DNA of 64,000 nucleotides from Deltaproteobacteria bacterium HGW-Deltaproteobacteria-8 (lineage in GTDB: Bacteria > Desulfobacterota > Desulfovibrionia > Desulfovibrionales > Desulfovibrionaceae). Where the stretch lies: contig PHAR01000001.1 in assembly GCA_002840405.1 (NCBI GenBank), positions 330,320 through 394,319 of the forward strand. Direction: 5' to 3'. The number at the start of each line of letters is the position of its first letter. Positions within the stretch are counted from its first letter, which is position 1. Shown piece by piece: positions 21,131-63,494 of the stretch. The position numbers were made by a program, and so were the translations under genes. The notes below the pieces were generated by a model. The model was given only the letters and a program-made list of their open reading frames with translations, was not told the origin of the DNA and searched no databases.

Positions 21131-21158
21131 GGGCCGCAGAGTTATCTGCGGCCCTTTT
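21131..21158 (+). terminator. Rho-independent terminator
   Basis: Perfect 9-bp stem GGGCCGCAG/CTGCGGCCC with a short loop and a TTTT tail on the plus strand. It ends the zinc-ribbon gene and faces the convergent SH3 gene; the A-run on the left may let it work in both directions. Confidence 0.88.
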
Positions 21159-21201
21159 GCTTGTGCGCGAGGCAAAGTCGGCGTTTCGTGCGCAGCACGC
21201 T

Positions 21202-22242
21202 CTAACGCTTGGTGCGCAGCACCACCTCGCGCCACCAGAATTCCTTGAGCCTGCCGTCGTCGTGGAAACGGGCCACGGCAAAGGCCAGGCCGTCCTTCTC
21301 CATGCCGGGCAGCAGCACCTCCACCTGGAGATCCTCATTCTTGCGGCGCTCGGCCTTCCAGATCTCCCGCACAATCTTGCGCAGGGCCTCGGGCGCGGGC
21401 GGCGCGGGCATGTCCAGGCGCACGCGCAGCACCACCGGCGCCAGCGGCCGCAGGAGGTCGGCCTGGCGACTCAGCACGGCATAGGCTACGGCATCGCCGT
21501 TCTTCTGCTTCTGCGCGCCTTTGGCCGGGGCTTCCTTGCCCGCAGGCTCCGTGGCCTCAGGCAGGGGCTGCCCGGCATAGTCCTTCTCCGGCACCAGAAA
21601 CTTGTCGCGACCATAGCCCCATGCGCGGGACAGGTCGCGCACCTTCTCCTCCGGGTCGAACACGGCGAACCAGCCGTCCTCCAGGAAATCCACACGCACG
21701 CGCTTTCCGGCCGGGAGCAGGCGCTTGAACTCCGTGTCCTTGTCACGTCCGGCGCGCACGGCCATCTTTCGGTCGGCCACGCGGATCTCGCCGAAGGGCT
21801 GGGGCGGCGCCTGCTTTTTGGCCCCGGTCTTTTTGGCCTGATCGGCCGCAGGGGGCTTGGCGGGCTTTTCAGGCTTGGCGGGCTTTTCGGAGCGCGGCAA
21901 GGCCTCGGGCTTGGCCCCTGGGCTGGCCTCGGCGTGCAGCTCGGCCAGGCGAACGTAGCCCTGGGCGCGCGTCTCGGCGCGCACCATCTCCGCTGGATCA
22001 AACACCGCAGCCCAGCCATCATCCACAAAATCCACGCGAACCTTCTGTCCGCTTTTCAGCACGCGCACAGTAAGCGCGTCCAGGGCCGGATTCTCGCGCA
22101 CCGCGACCTTGCCGCTGACCGTGTACACGCGGCCCCAGCCCGGCTGCCTGGCCAGTTCCTTGGCTGTTTCTTTGGACAAGGCAGTGGCGGCGCAGACCAG
22201 GGCCAGCAGGGCCGCGACAATGCAGGCAATGAGGCTGCGCAT
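21202..22242 (-). CDS. Exported protein with two SH3-like domains
   Basis: A 346-aa protein with a signal peptide (residues 1-22, ALS). Two SH3-like repeats are visible, around residues 38-100 (GKVAVRENPALDALTVRVLKSG) and 150-215 (DRKMAVRAGRDKDTEFKRLLPAG). Both share the VRVDF-DDGW-AVFDP pattern. A Lys/Pro/Ala-rich linker (about 108-145) separates them. The C-terminal 100 residues resemble no domain I can name. It lies 3 bases after the Skp-like gene, so a periplasmic envelope role is likely. Confidence 0.82.
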   Translation of the reverse strand: MRSLIACIVAALLALVCAATALSKETAKELARQPGWGRVYTVSGKVAVRENPALDALTVRVLKSGQKVRVDFVDDGWAAVFDPAEMVRAETRAQGYVRLAELHAEASPGAKPEALPRSEKPAKPEKPAKPPAADQAKKTGAKKQAPPQPFGEIRVADRKMAVRAGRDKDTEFKRLLPAGKRVRVDFLEDGWFAVFDPEEKVRDLSRAWGYGRDKFLVPEKDYAGQPLPEATEPAGKEAPAKGAQKQKNGDAVAYAVLSRQADLLRPLAPVVLRVRLDMPAPPAPEALRKIVREIWKAERRKNEDLQVEVLLPGMEKDGLAFAVARFHDDGRLKEFWWREVVLRTKR

Positions 22243-22245
22243 GGC

Positions 22246-22788
22246 CTACTTGCCGCGCCCGTCGAGCTCTTGGGCCACGCGCTCGGTCAAATCCACCGAG
22301 GCCTTGTCCACATAGCCCACGGCAGCGGGGTCGGTGAAGATGATGGCGTAACCGCCCTTCTTGCCCAGGTCCTCGAGCACGGCCTCGGCCCGGCGCATGA
22401 CGTACTGCAGCAGCCGGGTCTCCTCGGCCTTGATGTCGCGCGCGTTCTCGGAGAGCAGCTGCTCGTGCTGGGCGGCCTTGCGGCGCAGCAGCTCCTCGCG
22501 CCGGGTGCGGTCCTGGGCCGAGAGGCCAGGGGCCTCGGCCTCTTTGCGCAAGGTCTCGATCTGGACCGCGCTCGCCTTGGCCAGGCGGTCCTTTTCAGCC
22601 ACGTAACGCGCCAGATCAGCCTTGGCCGTCTTGCCCAGGCGCGTCTCGTTGACCACACGCTGGGGGTTCACGAAGCCGATCTTCTGCTCGGCCAGCGCAG
22701 GCCACGGCGCAAGAAGAAGCATAAGAATTACAGCAGAGAAGAAGGGGTGTCGCAGAAGGATGGAGCGGCTCATTGGGGTTTGATACAT
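22246..22788 (-). CDS. OmpH/Skp-family periplasmic chaperone
   Basis: A 180-aa protein. It has a signal peptide (about residues 6-33, ending WPALA), then the family start EQKIGFVNPQRVVNET. A long charged coiled coil (about 50-140) forms the tentacle, and a final small beta segment is YAIIFTDPAAVGYVD. Skp captures unfolded outer-membrane proteins in the periplasm. An internal ATG at 22773 could also be the start; neither has a clear ribosome site. It is cotranscribed with priA upstream and the SH3 gene downstream. Confidence 0.88.
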   Translation of the reverse strand: MYQTPMSRSILLRHPFFSAVILMLLLAPWPALAEQKIGFVNPQRVVNETRLGKTAKADLARYVAEKDRLAKASAVQIETLRKEAEAPGLSAQDRTRREELLRRKAAQHEQLLSENARDIKAEETRLLQYVMRRAEAVLEDLGKKGGYAIIFTDPAAVGYVDKASVDLTERVAQELDGRGK

Positions 22789-22839
22789 GCGCGGGGCCGT
22801 CTTGTCGAGGGCCTCTGGAACACCGCCAGGGTCTTCATC

Positions 22840-25233
22840 TCAAAGCATGTTCACCGGGTCCAGGTCCAGCTCCAGACGGAAGGCTCCGGGCGCGGCTCCG
22901 GGCATGGCCTCCGGCCGCGAGAGCGCGGCATAGAGCGAGCGGATAGGCTGCCAGTCGGCGCATTTGAGCAGGCAGTTGAAACGCTTGCGGCCGCGCAGAT
23001 GGGCCATGGGCGCGGGCGCCGGGCCGAGCACGTCCACGCCGAGGGACTTGGCGGTTTCGCGCAGGGCCTTGGCAAAGGCGAGCATGGCCTCGTGCAGATG
23101 CTCCTGGTCCGCCGGACAGGAGAGGCGCAGGAGTGCCAGCTTGGTGAAGGGCGGATAGCGGAAGCGCTGACGCTGCGCGATCTCGCGATTGTAAAAGCCC
23201 TGGTAGTCGGCCCGCAGCACGAAATCCCAGAAGGGATGCGCCGGGTTGCGCGTCTGCACCAGCACGCGTCCAGGTTTGTCCCCGCGCCCGGCCCGGCCCG
23301 AGACCTGGACAAGAAGCTGATAGGTGCGCTCGGCCGCGCGGTAGTCCGGCAGGTACAGGCCCATGTCCGCGTTGGCCACCACGACCAGAGTCACGCCGGG
23401 AAAGTGGTGGCCCTTGGAAAGCATCTGCGTGCCCACCAGCACCTGGGCCTCGCCCTCACGGAAGCGGCGCAGGATCTCCTCCATGCGCTCCTGGCGGCGG
23501 GCGCTGTCGCGGTCCATGCGCAGCACCTTGACCTCATGGCCCAGGGTGCGCAGGAAATATTCCTCCAGGCGTTCGGTGCCCTCGCCCATGGGCACGAAGG
23601 TCACGCCGCCGCACTTGGCGCAGGGGATGGGGTACGGGTGCGACAGTCCGCAGTAGTGGCAGACCAGGCGCTCGCGCAGCTTATGGTAGGTCAGGCCCAC
23701 CTGGCAGTCCGGGCACTGGACCACCTCCTCGCAGGCCATGCAGTACATCACCGGGGCATAGCCGCGCCGGTTGAGCATGACGATGATCTGGTCGCCCGCG
23801 TCGAGCGCGGTCTGGATGGCCTCAAGCGTCTCCGGGGCAAAGGGCTCGTCCGGGTTCTTCAGCCCCGCGATGTCAATCAGCCGGACCTCGGGCATGGCCC
23901 GGCTGCCCACTCGGCTTCCCAGCGTCTGCACGGGCAACTGGCCGCTCTGTCCGGCGTGAAAAGTCTTGATGTCCGGCGTGGCCGAGCCCAGCACCAAGAG
24001 GCCCCCGGAGCGCTGGATGCGCGAATAGGCCAGCTCCTTGGCGTGGTAGGCCAGGCGCTCCTCCTGCTTGTAGGATTCGTCGTGCTCCTCGTCGAGCACG
24101 ATGAGCCCCAGGTCGCGGATGGGCAGGAACAGGGCCGAACGCGTGCCCACCACGAGCACCGGGCCTCTATTCATGCTGGCAGCCGCACCGATGCGCGAAA
24201 AGGTCTGCTCGCGGCGGCTCGGGCTCTGGTAGCCGTGGGAGAAATAGGCCTCGGCCGCTGGCAGGGCCGCCTTCGTCTGCCGCCACAGGTGGCAGGCAAG
24301 GGCCACCTCCGGTGCCAGCAAAAGCACCGAGCGCCCAAGCTCCAGGCAACGCTTGGCCAGCTCCAGGTAGACGTGGGTCTTGCCGCTGCCCGTGACCCCA
24401 TGCATGAGCGACATGCGCGCGGAGGCGGACTCCAGGGCGGGCAGGAGCTCGGCCAGGGCGGCCCGCTGCTCCGGGGTGGCGGAAAGGGCCTCGGCTTCTT
24501 CGCCCGGAAGGGGAATGCAGACCGGCACCTCGTCGGCGCCTTCCTCGGCATCCAGCGGCTCGCCCAGGCGCACGATGCCCGCCGTGGCCAGGCGCTTCAT
24601 GGCCTGGATGCCGGAGTCGCCGAACACGGCGCGCACCGCGCCCAGGCTCATGGCCCCGGCGTCGAACAGGCGCTCCAGCAGGCGGATCTGGTTCACGGCG
24701 TTGGGCCGCACAGCCCAGGGCGGATCCTTGGCAAGTATGACGAAAAGCTCCTCGTCGCGCCTGCGCGGGGCCAGGCGCACGCGCATGCGGCCCTCGGCCC
24801 AGAGCCCGGCCAGGACCGCCAGCTGTTCCGGGGTCATGGTCTGCAGGGCCTTGGGGCTGAATGTGGGGCGAAAGTCCGGGTGCTCCACGGAAAAGGACAT
24901 GGCCGACGTGCGCAGGCCGCGCGGCAGGATCAGCTCCAGCACGCGCCCGGGATGGGCCATGTGCCGGGTCGAGAGCTCGCGCACCAGGTCCAGCGTGCCG
25001 GGGTCGAGCACGGGCTCGTGCTCCAGCGGCCAGACCAGGGCTTTGAGCTCAACGCCCTGGGGCGGGGCCTTGGTCGGTTCCTGCAAGATGCCCACGCGCA
25101 GTCCACGCCCCAGCGGGGCCAGCACACGCAGGCCGGGCTGCGGGGTGGGGAACCAGTCCGGACACAGGTAGGTGAGGGCCGCGTACGGCGGGCTGGCCAG
25201 CCAGACCTGCCACGCTTGCCGCGCTAGGCTCAT
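22840..25233 (-). CDS. priA: Primosomal protein N' (replication restart helicase PriA)
   Basis: A 3'-5' DNA helicase that reloads the replisome at collapsed forks. It is 797 aa. An N-terminal DNA-binding domain is followed by Walker A HGVTGSGKTHVYLE, the DEEH box VLDEEHDESYKQE, and a zinc-binding insertion with CMAC, CPDC, CHYC and CAKC pairs. Helicase motifs V and VI are seen in GTQMLSKGHHFP and QVSGRAGRGDKPG. The start at 25233 has GGGGGG about 9 bases ahead. It follows galU in the long minus-strand block, separated by a double tetraloop element. Confidence 0.96.
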   Translation of the reverse strand: MSLARQAWQVWLASPPYAALTYLCPDWFPTPQPGLRVLAPLGRGLRVGILQEPTKAPPQGVELKALVWPLEHEPVLDPGTLDLVRELSTRHMAHPGRVLELILPRGLRTSAMSFSVEHPDFRPTFSPKALQTMTPEQLAVLAGLWAEGRMRVRLAPRRRDEELFVILAKDPPWAVRPNAVNQIRLLERLFDAGAMSLGAVRAVFGDSGIQAMKRLATAGIVRLGEPLDAEEGADEVPVCIPLPGEEAEALSATPEQRAALAELLPALESASARMSLMHGVTGSGKTHVYLELAKRCLELGRSVLLLAPEVALACHLWRQTKAALPAAEAYFSHGYQSPSRREQTFSRIGAAASMNRGPVLVVGTRSALFLPIRDLGLIVLDEEHDESYKQEERLAYHAKELAYSRIQRSGGLLVLGSATPDIKTFHAGQSGQLPVQTLGSRVGSRAMPEVRLIDIAGLKNPDEPFAPETLEAIQTALDAGDQIIVMLNRRGYAPVMYCMACEEVVQCPDCQVGLTYHKLRERLVCHYCGLSHPYPIPCAKCGGVTFVPMGEGTERLEEYFLRTLGHEVKVLRMDRDSARRQERMEEILRRFREGEAQVLVGTQMLSKGHHFPGVTLVVVANADMGLYLPDYRAAERTYQLLVQVSGRAGRGDKPGRVLVQTRNPAHPFWDFVLRADYQGFYNREIAQRQRFRYPPFTKLALLRLSCPADQEHLHEAMLAFAKALRETAKSLGVDVLGPAPAPMAHLRGRKRFNCLLKCADWQPIRSLYAALSRPEAMPGAAPGAFRLELDLDPVNML

Positions 25234-32497: not shown

Positions 32498-32591
32498 GGA
32501 AGCGTATCGTCACCGGTGTGGCGCCTAGACTTCAAATCTAGTGGAACGTCGAGAGGCGTTCGGTAGGTTCGACCCCTATACGCTTCCGCCA
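32498..32591 (+). tRNA. selC: tRNA-Sec (anticodon TCA)
   Basis: Selenocysteine tRNA of about 94 bases with encoded CCA. The acceptor stem is 8 bp (GGAAGCGT with ACGCTTCC), the anticodon stem-loop TAGA-CTTCAAA-TCTA presents TCA, and a long variable arm follows. The T-arm contains GGTTCGACCCC. The 8-bp acceptor and the long extra arm are bacterial SelC features. It means the organism decodes UGA as selenocysteine, as expected for formate dehydrogenases and hydrogenases of sulfate reducers. It stands alone, with yaiI 58 bases downstream. Confidence 0.95.
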
Positions 32592-50291: not shown

Positions 50292-51119
50292 TTAGACACT
50301 CACGGACACCGACTGCGCCGACTGTTCGCTGTTTGCAAACAGGCTGGAGATGAGGGTGTCTATGTTCTGGTACGAGCTGGAGGCCTTCTGGCGCAGCATG
50401 TAGTCTGCCAGTCTTCCGGTCAGGGACGAAGAGTCACTGTCAGAAGAACTGGTCGTGCCCGTGGTGCTGCTGGTGTTGCTGAACAGCCCGCTGATGAGGT
50501 TGTCCAGGTTCGTCGTGCTCTGGGCACCGCTCTGGCTCTGCACGCTGTCGGAAGTCGGCGGAGCCGGCATGCTTCCGCCATTCTCGGCCATCATTTCCTC
50601 ACGGTGGGCCTTGAGCGAGGCGGTGAGCTCAGACTCGTTGACGCTGCCGTCGCCGTCGGTGTCAACCGCTGACAGGTCGTCCGCGCTCGCGCCCAGTTCC
50701 TCGGCCGAGAGCACGCCATCCTTGTTCGTGTCCTTCTCGGAGATGATGCTCTTGGACATCTTGGTGTCCAAGGCGGACAAGTCCATGCCCTGGCCCATGG
50801 CGGCCTGGAGCATGCCCATCTGCCCGTCCTGGGACATCTGGTTCTGCATCTGGGCCTGCATCTGCTCGCGCTTGGCCTTGAGTCCAGCGGCCAGTTCGGC
50901 CGCGCTGACGACGCCGTCGCCGTCTGTGTCATACTCGGCCACGTTGCTCTGGCTGACGCCAAGCTCCGAGGCCGTAAGCGTGCCGCTCCCGTCCGTGTCC
51001 TTGGCCTTGAGGATCTCGTCGGCCAGCTTGCTGTCCATGTCATCCGTATTCTGCGACCCATAGGCCGAACTCACGGCGCTGTAGCCGCTGATACTGCTCA
51101 AAGAAGAGCTGATCTCCAT
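50292..51119 (-). CDS. Protein with four EF-hand calcium-binding loops
   Basis: A 275-aa acidic, serine-rich protein. Four canonical EF loops start at residues 41 (DTDGSGTLTASE), 64 (DTDGDGVVSAAE), 130 (DTNKDGVLSAEE) and 153 (DTDGDGSVNESE). All have Asp/Asn at positions 1, 3 and 5 and Glu at 12. The C-terminal third is Ser/Thr-rich and carries two similar segments, NLDNLISGLFSN and NIDTLISSLFAN. No Sec signal; the N-terminus MEISSSLSSISG is serine-rich. CAGGAG precedes the ATG. The function is unknown; calcium binding is very likely. Confidence 0.88.
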   Translation of the reverse strand: MEISSSLSSISGYSAVSSAYGSQNTDDMDSKLADEILKAKDTDGSGTLTASELGVSQSNVAEYDTDGDGVVSAAELAAGLKAKREQMQAQMQNQMSQDGQMGMLQAAMGQGMDLSALDTKMSKSIISEKDTNKDGVLSAEELGASADDLSAVDTDGDGSVNESELTASLKAHREEMMAENGGSMPAPPTSDSVQSQSGAQSTTNLDNLISGLFSNTSSTTGTTSSSDSDSSSLTGRLADYMLRQKASSSYQNIDTLISSLFANSEQSAQSVSVSV

Positions 51120-51464
51120 AGTCCACTCCTGAAGACCGCCGCTGCGTTGCCGCAAGGCGGGATGTCGATCTGCCTGAAAAACATTACCTGTGACGGAACG
51201 TCTCGAACAGGCGGCCCTTGGCCGTCGCAGCATTATGGCATCGCATCCTCCATCGCCTCCCCTCCCGAGGGACACGGTGGAGTCCTTCACAACAATGACG
51301 CCTGGGACTTTAGGGTGGTTACGCAATTTTCCGAAATATATACCATCAACAGCCAAGCGCCGCCGGCACGCAGGCTTGCCTGACGCCGCGCGCTGGTGCT
51401 ACCATATAAAATGGCAGGGACACGCGCCCTGCCCCGGCTCAATCCATCAGCTTCAGGAGCGGAC
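51120..51464. other. Divergent intergenic region between EF-hand and FAD genes
   Basis: 345 bases without a gene. It contains an AT-rich core (51335-51350) and, towards the FAD gene, TTGCCT (51376-51381) with TACCAT 18 bases later and TATAAAAT just after. A leader hairpin follows at 51413. A promoter for each direction is expected; I cannot fix the minus-strand one. Confidence 0.5.
51413..51433 (+). other. Leader hairpin before the FAD oxidoreductase
   Basis: GGCAGGG and CCCTGCC form a perfect 7-bp stem with a 7-base loop, directly after the TATAAAAT box and 31 bases before the start codon. It would lie at the 5' end of the transcript and may protect the mRNA or bind a regulator. Confidence 0.5.
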
Positions 51465-52868
51465 ATGCCCCCGACCAAGCCCCTTCGCACCGACTTCGAC
51501 GTCATCATCGTGGGCGGCGGCCCGGCCGGGCTTTTCGCCTCGGTCTGGCTGGGCGAGAACACCAGCCTCTCCGTGCTCGTCATCGAGCGCGGCAAGCCCG
51601 CGCCCAAGCGCGACTGCCCGGTGGGGCGCTCCGGCTGCATCCACTGCAAGCCCTGCAACATCCTCTCAGGCATCGGCGGGGCCGGGCTGTTCTCCGACGG
51701 CAAACTCAACTTCATCCACAAGCTCGGCAAGACCGACCTGACCCAGTTCATGGGCGAATGCGAGGCGCGCGCCCTCATCGACGAGACCGAGGCCATGTTC
51801 AACCGCTTCGGCATGGACGGCCCCGTATACCCCACGGACATGGAGCAGGCCCTGCGCGTGCGCACCCAGGCCAAGAAGTGTGGCATCGACCTCTTGATCA
51901 TCCGCCAGAAGCACCTGGGCAGCGACAAACTGCCCACCCTCATCGCGGACATGACCGAGTACGTGAAGAGCCGCGGGGTCACCATCCACACCTCCGAGGA
52001 GGTCAAGGATGTGCTGGTGGAGAATGGGGAGCTCCGGGGCGTGGTCACGGGCCGAGCCGAGTACACCGCCCGCGCAGTGATCCTGGCCCCTGGCCGGGTG
52101 GGCGCGGAGTGGATGGGCAACCAGGCCCGCGCGTTGGGCCTCGGCCTGTCACAGCGCGGCATTGAGGTGGGCGTGCGCGTGGAGGTGCCGCGCGAGGTCA
52201 TGCAGGAGCTCTGCGAGATCATCTACGACCCGACGTTTTTCATCCGCACCAGCAAGTACGACGACCAGACGCGCACGTTCTGCACCAACGACGGCGGCTA
52301 CGTGGCCCTGGAGAACTACCAGGACTTCGTCTGCGTCAACGGGCATGCCTACCTGGACAGGAAGAGCCCCAACACCAACTTCGCCTTTTTGTCCAAGGTG
52401 GTGCTGAACGACCCGGTGACCAACAACCAGGCCTACGGCGAGCACATCGGGCGGCTGGCCTCGCTCATCGGCGACGGCAAGCCCATCCTGCAGCGCTTCG
52501 GTGACCTGAAGCGCGGCCGCCGCAGCACCTGGTCGCGCATCAAGAACAGCTCCATTGAGCCGACGCTGAAGAACGTGGTCTGCGGCGACATCGCCATGGC
52601 CCTGCCCGAGCGCATCCTGACCAACATCGTGGAGGGGCTGGAGAAGCTCGGCCAGGTGGTGCCGGGCGTGGCCAACGACGAGACCCTGCTCTACGCACCC
52701 GAGATCAAGTTCTTCGCCACCCAGGTGGAGACTGACAGCAACCTGGAGACCGCCGTTTCCGGGCTCTTCGTGGCCGGAGACGGGCCTGGCGTGGCAGGCA
52801 ACATCGTCTCCGCCGCAGCCACGGGCCTCATCCCGAGCAAGGAAATCGCCAGAAGACTGGCCGGTTAG
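51465..52868 (+). CDS. FAD-dependent dehydrogenase (NAD(P)/FAD oxidoreductase)
   Basis: A 467-aa flavoprotein. The FAD-binding loop is DVIIVGGGPAGLFAS with the acidic VIERGK end of strand 2. A cysteine-rich GCIHCKPCNILSGIGGAGLFSDGKLN segment follows near residue 55, and VAGDGPGVAGNIVSAAATG closes the FAD site. This is the family annotated as FAD-dependent dehydrogenase; the substrate is unknown. CAGGAG stands ahead of the ATG at 51465. The SLC23 permease gene follows after 93 bases. Confidence 0.88.
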   Translation: MPPTKPLRTDFDVIIVGGGPAGLFASVWLGENTSLSVLVIERGKPAPKRDCPVGRSGCIHCKPCNILSGIGGAGLFSDGKLNFIHKLGKTDLTQFMGECEARALIDETEAMFNRFGMDGPVYPTDMEQALRVRTQAKKCGIDLLIIRQKHLGSDKLPTLIADMTEYVKSRGVTIHTSEEVKDVLVENGELRGVVTGRAEYTARAVILAPGRVGAEWMGNQARALGLGLSQRGIEVGVRVEVPREVMQELCEIIYDPTFFIRTSKYDDQTRTFCTNDGGYVALENYQDFVCVNGHAYLDRKSPNTNFAFLSKVVLNDPVTNNQAYGEHIGRLASLIGDGKPILQRFGDLKRGRRSTWSRIKNSSIEPTLKNVVCGDIAMALPERILTNIVEGLEKLGQVVPGVANDETLLYAPEIKFFATQVETDSNLETAVSGLFVAGDGPGVAGNIVSAAATGLIPSKEIARRLAG

Positions 52869-52961: not shown

Positions 52962-54566
52962 ATGCTGCGAGACACATTAAAATACGACGCGACCCAGTCG
53001 CCTCCCCTGCATCTGGCGATCTGCCTCGCCTTCATGCATGTCCTGCTGGTTTTCGACGCCATCATCTTCATCCCCAACGTGCTGAACAAGACCGTTGGCC
53101 TGGCCCCCCAGTCCCTTGCCTTCATCACCTTCAGCACCATCGTCATCTCGGCCCTGTTCACCTTTCTGCAAAGCAGAACCAGGCTTGGCATCGGCTCGGG
53201 CTTCCTGCTGTTCAGCGGCTCCTACAGCGCCTTCATGCTCTGCTCCGTGGACGCGGTGAGGATGGGAGGGCTGCCCCTGCTTGCGACCGTGTCCCTGCTC
53301 ACTGTGCCCATCGTGTTTCTGTACACCTTCTTCATCCGCTTCTTCCGGCACATCATCACCCCGGCCGTTGGCGGGGTGGTGGTGCTGCTCATCGCCATGT
53401 CCATGGTGCCCATCGGCCTTGAGCTGTGGGCGGGCGATCTGGCGTCCGGCGCAACCGTTTCCCTGGCCCGCATAGGCACAGGCGCGGTGACCGTGCTCAG
53501 TCTGGCGCTGCTCATGCTCTTCGGTCGGCCCGGCCTGCGCCTGTGGAGCCCGCTCATCGCCATGGGCTGCGGCTACGCCACGGCCTTCATTTTCGGAGTG
53601 GCCACCTTCGAGCACTCCACGCGCGGGGCCTGGTTCGGCCTGCCAGAAATGAGCGCCTGGCCGGGACTGGAGATGAACATCAAGAGCTTCCACCTGCCCC
53701 TTCTCCTCACCTTTGGCATGGGCATGATCGCCAGCATGATCGAGAGCACCGGCAACATCATGCTTGTGCAGCAGATCTCCACGCGCGACTTCCGCCGCGT
53801 GTCCTACGACCAGGTGCAAAGCGGCCTCTACTGCGACGGATTGAGCAAGGTCGCCGCCGGACTGATGGGCACCGCAGTGCCCTCCACCTACTGCGACAAC
53901 CTGCCGCTCATCGAGATGACGGGCGTGGCGTCCCGGCGCATCGGCAGCATCGGGGCCTGCATCCTGCTCGTCCTGGCCTTCATGCCCAAGGTCAGCGGCG
54001 TGATTCTGGACATGCCCGGCCCGGTCATCGGGGGGTTTCTTATCGTCATCGCCGCCCTGCTGTTCCATGCGGGCTTCGGCCTCGTCGCCATGACCAAGCT
54101 CAGCAACCAGCACGGGCTCATCCTGGGCCTGTCGCTGGTGGTGGGCCTGGTCGCCGGAGGCAAGTCATTCTTCCCGGGCGTCATTCCTGCGAGTCTGAGC
54201 CCGCTTTTGCAGAACAGCGTGGCTGTCGGCGGCTTCACGGCCTTTTTGCTGAGCATTCTGGCGTACATCGCTCCCAGAAGTGGCATCAGCGGTGTGTTCC
54301 GGGCGAAAGCATCCGAGCTGGCTGGGCTGCAACGCCTGCTGGCCTCTGGCCAGGAAAAGCTGAAGCTCTCCGGAGAGCGGCTCAACATTTTATCCCTCTG
54401 CTGCGAGGAGATCTTCACCCACATGGTGACCGCAGCTTCCGTGAACAGCGAACACATGCTGACAATACGCGTTTCGCTCACGGAGGATGGCTGCTTCACG
54501 GAAATGGTCTGCGGGCACAAGATGGACGACATCAACAATTTCGCCCTGCCGGAATCCCTCATCTAG
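52962..54566 (+). CDS. SLC23-type nucleobase permease with HATPase-like tail, cut by in-frame TAG
   Basis: A 534-aa protein up to the TAG stop. The core (about residues 15-445) has the 12-14 spans of the uracil/xanthine (NCS2, SLC23) family, with MIESTGNIMLVQQIS and GTAVPSTYCDN at the substrate site. After it comes a soluble region (about 455-534, LNILSLCCEEIFTHMVTAA) resembling RsbW-type HATPase domains. The reading frame continues for 36 clean codons after TAG to a TGA at 54677 and completes that domain. Either a recent nonsense change, readthrough or a sequence error explains this. Confidence 0.87.
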   Translation: MLRDTLKYDATQSPPLHLAICLAFMHVLLVFDAIIFIPNVLNKTVGLAPQSLAFITFSTIVISALFTFLQSRTRLGIGSGFLLFSGSYSAFMLCSVDAVRMGGLPLLATVSLLTVPIVFLYTFFIRFFRHIITPAVGGVVVLLIAMSMVPIGLELWAGDLASGATVSLARIGTGAVTVLSLALLMLFGRPGLRLWSPLIAMGCGYATAFIFGVATFEHSTRGAWFGLPEMSAWPGLEMNIKSFHLPLLLTFGMGMIASMIESTGNIMLVQQISTRDFRRVSYDQVQSGLYCDGLSKVAAGLMGTAVPSTYCDNLPLIEMTGVASRRIGSIGACILLVLAFMPKVSGVILDMPGPVIGGFLIVIAALLFHAGFGLVAMTKLSNQHGLILGLSLVVGLVAGGKSFFPGVIPASLSPLLQNSVAVGGFTAFLLSILAYIAPRSGISGVFRAKASELAGLQRLLASGQEKLKLSGERLNILSLCCEEIFTHMVTAASVNSEHMLTIRVSLTEDGCFTEMVCGHKMDDINNFALPESLI

Positions 54567-54677
54567 GCCAACCCCGACGAACTGGACCAGATCGGACTGA
54601 TGCTGTTCTCGCAGTATGCCCACAACGTGAAACACCTGGAGATCTCCGGATACTCCTACATCTCCTTCGTGATCTGA
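54564..54677 (+). other. In-frame amber codon and coding continuation of the SLC23 gene
   Basis: TAG at 54564-54566 is followed in frame by codons for ANPDELDQIGLMLF and, further on, HLEISGYSYISFVI, then TGA. The segment has the G-L helix and last strand of an HATPase fold and normal codon use. No ribosome site or ATG suggests a separate gene. Confidence 0.75.
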
Positions 54678-60439: not shown

Positions 60440-62059
60440 CTAATAGCCTCTCTGGCCGTCAGCCCGGAACATGCGCCCAGTCTGCTTGCGGGCCGCACCC
60501 TGGATCTTGGCCGCGTCGTCCACACGCCCGCAGACCAGCGGGATCTCTCCGCCCTGGGAGCCGCCCAGGTTGCCCACGCACTCCACGGTCCTGACCGGCA
60601 CCGGCCCGCGCGAGCGCGCCTGGCCCCGGCCGCTCAAGAGGTCGCGCAGGCGGCGCAGCTCGGGCTGGTCCTGCTCCGGGCGCTTGAGGTCCAGGCGCAC
60701 ATGCAGGTTGCCATCCTCCACGGCCAGGCCGGTGAGCTCCACGCGGTTCACGATGCGCTCCTCGCCCACCAGGGTGCCGTAGAGGGTGTCGCCGCCGGGC
60801 TTGAGCTGGAGCATGGGAAAATTCCAGTTGCTGTCGGTCTCAAACCGCCAGACCCCGGCCAGGCGGTTGAGCACCATGGCCCGGTCGTCCGCGCGGGGAG
60901 CCGGGCGTGGTTTCGGCGATGCCTGCTGCGGCGGAACCTGCCAGGGCATGGGCGTGTCCACCGAGGCCTGCTGGCCCGCAGAGGCGGAAGGCTGCTTGGC
61001 CTGGGCGGTCTTCTGACGTTCGGACTCGCGGCGCGCGGCCTCCAGGGCCAGGCGTTCCTGCTCCAGCTTGCGGCGCTCGGCATCCAGGATGGCCGCCTGC
61101 TCCCGCAGGCGCTGCTCCTGCGGGGCCTGGGCCTCGGCCAGCTTCTTGGCGGCCTCCTGGTCCAGCTGGCGCCTGCGGCGCTCAAGCTCGGCGCGGTCCT
61201 GCTCCACCTGGCGCTTTTCGGCCTCCAGCCCGGCGATGTACTCCTTGAGCTGCTGCTCCTGCTGGCGCTGTGCGGCCGTGGACTGCGAGGAGCTGATGGC
61301 CATGGCCTGCTGCGGCTGCCCGGCCACGTAAAAATATCCGGCTATGGACGAGGACTCCCAGGGCACCTGCTTCTTGCCGGTCTCGCTCATGACGCCGATG
61401 CGCACGCGCTTGAAGACCTCCTCGATGGGGATGCCCGGGGTGCTGATGTTCTGCAACAGGTACTTGGTGTACATGCCGTTGGCGCCCTTGCCGTCCGAGG
61501 CCACGGAGTTGGGGGCCGTGGCGTAGGCCACGATGGAGCCCGTGGGCGCGTCCATGCGCGCTAGGCCGGACTCCGCGCTGCGGAAGCTGCGCGCAAAGGG
61601 GTTGTTGCGGCAGGCGTCGAGGATGACGATGTTCAACTCGTTGCCCGCGTCCTCCATCTTGCCAAGCACCCGGCCCGCGTCCACGCACTCGAACTTGGCG
61701 TCGGATTCGCTGGAGATCCTGGCGCCCACGGGCACCAGGTAGTTCACGCCCTGCACCTGCACCCCGTGCCCGGCGAAGTAGAACAGGCCGACACCGCCGC
61801 GCTTGAGGCGCAGGCCGAATTCGCGGATGGCCTCCTCCATGTCGCGCTGGGCGACGTCGGTCTTGAGCTGCACCTCGAACCCCAGCCGTTGCAGGGCCTT
61901 GGCCATGTCCTTGGCGTCATTGGCCGGGTTCTTGAGGGGCTTGTCCTTGTAGGCCGAGTTGCCGATGACCAGGGCATAGCGCCCTCCGCTGGCCAGGGCC
62001 GGGGAGGTGAGCAAAAAAAGCGCAGCGAGCGCAAGAATGAGTCTGGTGGTGGTGCGCAT
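60440..62059 (-). CDS. Caspase-like (C14) peptidase with coiled coil
   Basis: A 539-aa exported protein. The signal peptide ends at SPALA (residue about 23). A p20 caspase domain (about 25-260) begins RYALVIGNSAYKD and holds the catalytic histidine in YFAGHGVQVQG and the cysteine in ILDACRNNPF. A charged coiled coil (about 285-400, rich in Glu, Arg and Gln) and a C-terminal beta domain follow. Prokaryotic metacaspase relatives cleave after basic residues; the target here is unknown. GGGAG lies ahead of the ATG at 62059. The longer frame upstream lacks support. Confidence 0.9.
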   Translation of the reverse strand: MRTTTRLILALAALFLLTSPALASGGRYALVIGNSAYKDKPLKNPANDAKDMAKALQRLGFEVQLKTDVAQRDMEEAIREFGLRLKRGGVGLFYFAGHGVQVQGVNYLVPVGARISSESDAKFECVDAGRVLGKMEDAGNELNIVILDACRNNPFARSFRSAESGLARMDAPTGSIVAYATAPNSVASDGKGANGMYTKYLLQNISTPGIPIEEVFKRVRIGVMSETGKKQVPWESSSIAGYFYVAGQPQQAMAISSSQSTAAQRQQEQQLKEYIAGLEAEKRQVEQDRAELERRRRQLDQEAAKKLAEAQAPQEQRLREQAAILDAERRKLEQERLALEAARRESERQKTAQAKQPSASAGQQASVDTPMPWQVPPQQASPKPRPAPRADDRAMVLNRLAGVWRFETDSNWNFPMLQLKPGGDTLYGTLVGEERIVNRVELTGLAVEDGNLHVRLDLKRPEQDQPELRRLRDLLSGRGQARSRGPVPVRTVECVGNLGGSQGGEIPLVCGRVDDAAKIQGAARKQTGRMFRADGQRGY

Positions 62060-62091
62060 ACATAGCTCCCGAACTCGGCTTATTGCATCCC

Positions 62092-62120
62092 ATGCTATCC
62101 AACAACGCCCCTGCTGGCAA
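62092..62120 (-). promoter_or_regulatory. Putative promoter of the caspase-like gene
   Basis: On the minus strand: TTGCCA (62120-62115), 17 bases, TAGCAT (62097-62092). It lies 33 bases upstream of the start at 62059. Confidence 0.45.
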
Positions 62121-62147
62121 CGACTGGTGCGGCAAATGCCCCGCGTC

Positions 62148-62175
62148 TGGACAACCACCGGGCGGTAGGTATAGA
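62148..62175 (+). promoter_or_regulatory. Putative promoter of the Nramp gene
   Basis: TGGACA (62148-62153), 16 bases, TATAGA (62170-62175). It overlaps the ATG at 62175, which supports the downstream GTG at 62226 as the real start. Confidence 0.45.
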
Positions 62176-62225
62176 TGTGCGGACATGGCGTCCTGTGTCC
62201 TTTCAGCAAAATCGAGGCCAACAGC

Positions 62226-63494
62226 GTGATCGCAAAACGCATCCAGGGCTGGTTCCGCGACCACCAGAGGCCACACTTCACGGGCCTGGAGATCCTCAAG
62301 TACATCGGGCCGGGCATGCTGGTCACGGTCGGCTTCATTGACCCCGGCAACTGGGCCGCCAACGTGGCCGCCGGGGCCGGGTTCGGCTACTCGCTCTTGT
62401 GGATGGTCACGCTGTCCACCCTCATGCTCATCGTGCTCCAGCACAACGCCGCGCACCTGGGAATAGCCACGGGCCTGTGCCTGTCCGAGGCCGCGGTGAA
62501 GCACATGCGCCCGGCCACCTCGCGCACGCTGCTGGGCTCGGCCATGATCGCCGCCGTGGCCACGGCCCTGGCCGAGCTGCTCGGCGCGGCCATCGCGCTC
62601 AACATGCTCTTCGGCCTGCCCATCTGGCTGGGCACGCTTTTGACCACAGCCTTCGTAGCCTGGATGCTTTACTCCAACGCCTACAGGCGCATTGAGAAAA
62701 TCATCATCGCCTTTGTGTCGCTCATCGGCCTCTCCTTCATCTACGAGCTGACCCTGGTGAAGATACCCTGGGGCGAGGCCGCCGTGGCCTGGGTCACGCC
62801 GAGCTTCCCGCACGGCTCCATCCCCATCATCATGAGCGTGCTCGGCGCGGTGGTCATGCCGCACAACCTGTTCCTGCACTCCGAGATCATCCAGAGCCGC
62901 CAGTGGAACCTCCAGGACAAGGACGTCATCAAGCACCAGTTGCGCTTTGAGTTCGCCGACACCCTGTTCTCCATGCTCATCGGCTGGGGCATCAACAGCG
63001 CCATGATCCTGGTGGCGGCGGCGACCTTCTTCGTCCAGGGCACCAATGTGGACCAGCTGGAGCAGGCCCAGCTCATGCTGCGGCCCATCCTGGGCGATGC
63101 CGCGGCCGTGGTCTTCGCCCTGGCCCTGCTCATGGCCGGCCTGTCCTCCAGCGTCACGGCGGGCATGGCCGGGGGCAGCATCTTCGCGGGCATCTTCTCC
63201 GAGCCCTTTGACATCAAGGACCCGCACAGCCGCCTGGGCGTGGGCCTGACCCTCGTCCCGGCGGCCCTGTGCATCCTGCTCATCACCTCGCCGTTCCAAG
63301 GGCTGGTGGTCTCGCAGATCCTGCTCAGCATCCAGCTGCCGCTGACCATCTACCTGCAGTTCCGGCTCACGGCCTCGCGCGCGGTCATGGGCGAGTTCGT
63401 CAACAGCGCCTGGCACAACATCGTCCTGGGCGCGATCTCCGTGGTGGTGGTGGGCCTGAACATGCTGCTGCTCTGGGACACCCTTCTGGGCTGA
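62226..63494 (+). CDS. Nramp-family divalent metal transporter (MntH-like)
   Basis: A 422-aa inner-membrane proton-coupled importer of Mn2+ or Fe2+. The first helix motif is GFIDPGNWAAN (metal-binding Asp and Asn of DPGN), and helix 6 has VVMPHNLFLHS with the MPH motif. About 11 hydrophobic spans follow the family pattern. I prefer the GTG at 62226 with GAGG about 8 bases ahead. It is divergent from the caspase-like gene, and no Fur or MntR box is obvious in the gap. Confidence 0.9.
   Translation: MIAKRIQGWFRDHQRPHFTGLEILKYIGPGMLVTVGFIDPGNWAANVAAGAGFGYSLLWMVTLSTLMLIVLQHNAAHLGIATGLCLSEAAVKHMRPATSRTLLGSAMIAAVATALAELLGAAIALNMLFGLPIWLGTLLTTAFVAWMLYSNAYRRIEKIIIAFVSLIGLSFIYELTLVKIPWGEAAVAWVTPSFPHGSIPIIMSVLGAVVMPHNLFLHSEIIQSRQWNLQDKDVIKHQLRFEFADTLFSMLIGWGINSAMILVAAATFFVQGTNVDQLEQAQLMLRPILGDAAAVVFALALLMAGLSSSVTAGMAGGSIFAGIFSEPFDIKDPHSRLGVGLTLVPAALCILLITSPFQGLVVSQILLSIQLPLTIYLQFRLTASRAVMGEFVNSAWHNIVLGAISVVVVGLNMLLLWDTLLG

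Follow-up and report, generated by a model that had tools for sequence, protein, structure and literature searches.

The window, meaning the whole 64,000-nucleotide stretch of DNA analyzed here, comes from a sulfate-reducing bacterium of the phylum Desulfobacterota and contains a gene for an SLC23/NCS2-type permease whose reading frame is closed by an in-frame TAG and then stays open for a further 36 codons, intact on both sides of the stop (Table 1). Immediately upstream lies a gene for an FAD-dependent protein, which adjoins the permease gene in two close relatives as well (L133 and L134), and upstream of that a gene for an EF-hand repeat protein. In two close relatives, matches to the EF-hand protein (56%–59% identity) likewise adjoin these genes.

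Table 1. Features of the permease locus and related elements (positions are those of the window)
Feature	Position	Strand	Basis or remark
Shortened ORF, SLC23/NCS2 permease, 534 aa, closed by in-frame TAG	52962..54566	+	ORF, Pfam Xan_ur_permease
Xan_ur_permease domain, residues 20–397, complete, upstream of stop	53019..54152	+	profile positions 4–382 of 389
Predicted RsbW/SpoIIAB-fold domain, residues 436–571 of read-through frame, broken by TAG	54267..54674	+	AlphaFold2, Foldseek
Premature TAG, codon 535	54564..54566	+	sense codon in 23/23 distinct orthologues
Orphaned tail, 36 codons: final two short helices and two strands (modeled), conserved KHLEISGYSYISF stretch	54567..54674	+	
TGA closing read-through frame	54675..54677	+	end codon position of nearest orthologues
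SLC23 permease fused to probably degenerate RsbW-fold domain	52962–54677; also loci L017–L038, L104–L108, L110		
FAD-dependent protein, upstream of permease gene	51396–52868		
EF-hand repeat protein, upstream of FAD-dependent protein	50292–51356	-	
tRNA-Sec gene, anticodon tca	32498–32591		

The permease assignment is secure at the level of the domain (Pfam Xan_ur_permease, 140.7 bits against a cut-off of 27), and two NCBIfam families, TIGR03173 and TIGR00801, also match, both under their cut-offs. By family, the gene product is predicted to be a nucleobase-type SLC23/NCS2 permease with a presumed role in transport. It shares the Xan_ur_permease domain with UraA and PbuX and differs from them in carrying an additional C-terminal domain of ~130 residues with an RsbW-like fold. 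A structure model of the full-length protein (mean pLDDT 36) was set aside.

The original prediction saw a HATPase or RsbW-type resemblance in this C-terminal region. At the level of profiles the resemblance falls short, as HATPase_c_2 scores 18.9 bits with the domain alone and 15 with the whole read-through protein, against a Pfam cut-off of 27.4, and even this weak match requires the frame to be extended past the stop; by fold, however, the resemblance is clear. The best of five AlphaFold2 models of the domain, built with 12 sequences, has a mean pLDDT of 82.1 and a pTM of 0.79 (the other four range from 80.1 down to 64.9 in mean pLDDT), with weaker blocks on the two sides of the stop (pLDDT 56 and 65). 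Foldseek returned 18 matches at E <= 0.001, every one an anti-sigma factor structure chain (UsfX, SpoIIAB or RsbW), with a best E-value of 5.9e-6 and TM-scores of 0.57–0.74, and RsbV/RsbW and SpoIIAA/SpoIIAB complexes are among these matches. When PDB sequences were searched with a profile made from the tail-domain alignment, three matches came up, all with unrelated names and the best at E 0.22. In the model, the TAG stands at domain residue 100, and the part beyond it would comprise two short helices, the last two strands, and the KHLEISGYSYISF stretch. The original prediction expected a last helix and strand in the tail; the model instead places there two short helices and a terminal strand pair. 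Half of the invariant columns of a 19-row domain alignment (6 of 12) lie after the TAG.

The domain has the same fold as the anti-sigma factor kinases RsbW, SpoIIAB, and UsfX; it differs from them in its attachment to a transporter and in the absence of two motif residues. Motif positions were aligned to a single RsbW-like protein encoded in this genome (L150), and we take them to be those of the N-box and G1-box. At the position of the N-box Asn there is His in 13 of the 19 rows and Tyr in the other 6, the N-box Glu is kept in all 19, and the position of the G1-box Asp is a gap in all 19. As neither the Asn nor the Asp is present in any row, kinase activity is probably absent, and the C-terminal domain is probably a degenerate, non-catalytic relative of RsbW.

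The fusion is real and is found in several families of the phylum. It had been called rare; it turns out to be a trait shared across the clade. Of 59 genomes searched, 58 of them from relatives and one the window's own, 22 of the relatives' contain a match over the full length, in 24 loci. These 24 loci contain no internal stops, and the window copy, in the same search, contains one internal TAG. Within the genus of the window organism, the fusion occurs in ten of 14 relatives. It was not found in G012 and G013 (completeness 100 and 99), nor in the less complete G006 and G011; given the near completeness of the first two, loss of the fused gene seems tolerable. A search of 395 genomes drawn from the phylum with the tail domain gave strong matches (E < 1e-20) in nine and weak ones in 25 others. 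Seven of the strong matches were new to the set, six of them with Xan_ur_permease in the same ORF and the seventh a 264-residue frame with no Pfam match, and no permease domain was present in any of the three weaker matches tested. Weaker matches L111–L130, from other genomes of the phylum, are open frames of ~440–490 residues; L111 and L114, the two of these tested, have no permease domain, and one of them has a weak HATPase_c_2 match at residues 66–163. Ten neighbors of seven more distant fused members were scanned, and no family was common between loci (three neighbors had no Pfam match).

What stands at the site of the TAG in relatives was read in 23 distinct sequences, namely the 22 loci L017–L038 and L013; the alignment itself has 25 rows because it includes the duplicates L005 (identical to L019) and L014 (identical to L028). 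The codon count leaves out L003, L004, and L006–L011, whose genes are identical to loci among L017–L026, the two full-length matches in G048 and G051 to which no loci were assigned, and two loci of a single MAG, L012 (cut by a contig end and containing an internal TAA) and L015 (a fragment). A sense codon stands here in each of the 23 distinct fused orthologues, which had been proposed as the sign of a mutation or a sequencing error. The original prediction had named as the case against it relatives that all end at this position; the orthologues instead extend to a matching C-terminus. The residue encoded is Gln in seven, Cys in five, Ser in four, Leu, Lys, and His in two each, and Arg in one. 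All seven Gln codons are CAG, one transition away from TAG, and they include those of the three orthologues closest to the window gene (L017, L018, and L019, at 86.8%, 84.0%, and 83.2% identity). In the fourth closest, L020 (80.0%), the codon is one for Leu, and CAG returns in L022 (79.3%). Because the residue varies among orthologues, this is not a conserved recoded position. Four partial matches without the tail, at 24%–47% identity (in G015, G017, G051, and G054), each have a stop inside, two of them TAG, one TGA, and one TAA.

Sequence beyond the stop is coding in character, and the claim that coding continues past the TAG for 36 codons with no frameshift holds. The tail has a GC content of 0.53/0.25/0.86 at the three codon positions, and 30 of its 36 residues (83%) are identical to those of the nearest relative, compared with 82% over the 104 codons before the stop. 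Counted by codon against that relative, the tail has 22 identical, eight synonymous, and six amino acid–changing positions, and the 104 preceding codons have 62, 23, and 19. Synonymous differences outnumber amino acid differences in the tail in four of five distinct pairs, the exception being the comparison with L019 (four synonymous, 11 amino acid). The mean share of the majority residue is 0.71 after the stop, 0.57 for residues 431–534, and 0.71 for residues 1–430 (25 rows, two of them duplicates). Amino acid changes polarized with outgroups number five (residues 1–430), four (431–534), and one (tail) on the window branch, and eight, five, and zero on the branch of the nearest relative. With no excess of changes on the window branch and a conserved tail, the stop is either very young or an error. 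A long-standing pseudogene is ruled out, as the window branch lacks the excess of changes. A constrained tail fits a very recent mutation, but it would fit an error or a functional readthrough too.

We consider it probable, at roughly 80%, that the TAG is a real and recent single-base nonsense mutation in the permease gene, seen only in this genome. A Gln codon CAG, as in the three nearest relatives, would have become TAG by one substitution very recently, and normal RF1 termination there would give the 534-residue protein. The last 36 residues would be removed, with the permease domain left whole. The membrane part would presumably still insert, and the C-terminal domain, deprived of its last two strands, would be expected not to fold properly; the product would then be either a permease that lacks its presumed regulatory tail or one that is unstable. 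Amber alleles and young bacterial pseudogenes show the same single substitution, intact relatives, and a frame kept beyond the stop, and the only difference here is the unusual host protein. As to how the base changed, the site reads CCAGG in five of the 23 distinct orthologues (L017, L018, L019, L022, and L023) and CTAGG in the window. Deamination at a Dcm-type site would turn CCAGG into CTAGG. The genome encodes at least two C5-methyltransferases that score above the dcm superfamily cut-off and may or may not act on CCWGG, and CCWGG occurs 628 times in the window against 281 expected, i.e., it is not depleted. An origin of the TAG at a methylation hotspot is therefore a guess.

Of the four readings of the stop offered in the original prediction, a nonsense mutation and a read error both fit the relatives. 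In the latter case the TAG would come from a mistake in the consensus or the assembly, or from a minor variant within the culture that was sequenced, and the real gene would be intact; we regard this as unlikely. It would account for a single altered base in surroundings that are intact and constrained, and a similar case exists in the MAG relative mentioned above, in which codon 511 of L012, on a low-coverage contig, is an in-frame TAA and L015, on another contig, has a Tyr codon (either two strains or an error). However, the window comes from a high-rated, long-contig assembly (13 contigs totaling 3.51 Mb, with completeness 100 and contamination 0), and the change is a substitution and not an indel.

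The nonsense mutation might also have been selected. On this rather improbable account, the RsbW-like pseudo-kinase would gate the SLC23 permease from the cytoplasm, as a brake or sensor that works by binding STAS proteins, and the mutation would have removed the brake. Elsewhere the genome encodes several STAS domains along with further HATPase_c_2 proteins, and so offers possible partners for the fused domain, although their binding to it is a guess. If true, this would be the mirror image of the SLC26–STAS transporters and would imply an unregulated transporter in this strain. SLC26/SulP transporters likewise join a transporter to a cytoplasmic domain of the partner-switching toolkit; their C-terminal domain is STAS, whereas the one here has the RsbW-like fold, which pairs with STAS proteins. 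A transporter architecture common to SLC26, SLC4, and SLC23 has been described (PMC6497670). A search covering part of the literature found no paper that names the SLC23 permease–RsbW-fold architecture. If borne out, the architecture would suggest that the partner-switching toolkit has contributed domains to transporters of this fold on more than one occasion. This conserved combination of a UraA-type permease with an RsbW fold may merit a later look and is more interesting than the stop, which is minor: one private, recent stop, with no sign of recoding in the tests.

Programmed readthrough, giving short and long isoforms, would explain why the tail is coding and constrained, but has nothing else in its favor and is very unlikely. 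The TAG is shared by none of the 23 distinct orthologues, and the 120 bases from the stop onward fold no better than shuffled sequence (z = -0.32; 72 of 200 shuffles were at least as good), i.e., no stable structure lies downstream. No other of the window's 23 TAG-terminated ORFs (this gene included) is followed by an in-frame, ORF-free, gene-like tail of at least 20 codons.

Amber as a sense codon, through pyrrolysine or a suppressor tRNA, has in its favor the open frame beyond the TAG and nothing else. Among the Desulfovibrionaceae, pyl genes do occur in some relatives, Bilophila for one, and pylT and pylS had been suggested as genes to look for. The best score in a PylS search of this genome was 22.3 bits against a cut-off of 178, so that none passes; one of 14 control genomes scored above the cut-off. 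There is no CUA anticodon among the 46 tRNA genes detected with RF00005 (which a very divergent tRNA could escape) or in the tRNA-Sec. ARAGORN assigned a sense anticodon to 45 of the 46; in the one it missed, the anticodon loop shows CGC when read by eye. RF1 is intact (533 bits against a cut-off of 423), and TAG is the commonest stop among 53 crude ORFs of the window (23 TAG, this gene included, 20 TGA, and ten TAA). With these results and a variable residue at the site, amber recoding fails and can be given almost no weight. Given the tRNA-Sec gene, some UGA codons of this organism are probably translated as selenocysteine.

Two further features of the window lie apart from the permease locus. 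One, at 60440–62362 on the minus strand, encodes a protein (~640 residues) in which a caspase-like Peptidase_C14 domain scores 143 bits. The other, at 21157–25227 on the plus strand, is an open frame of 1,356 codons whose composition is odd (GC 0.87/0.46/0.73 at the three codon positions); it may be a wrong frame or encode a repetitive protein.
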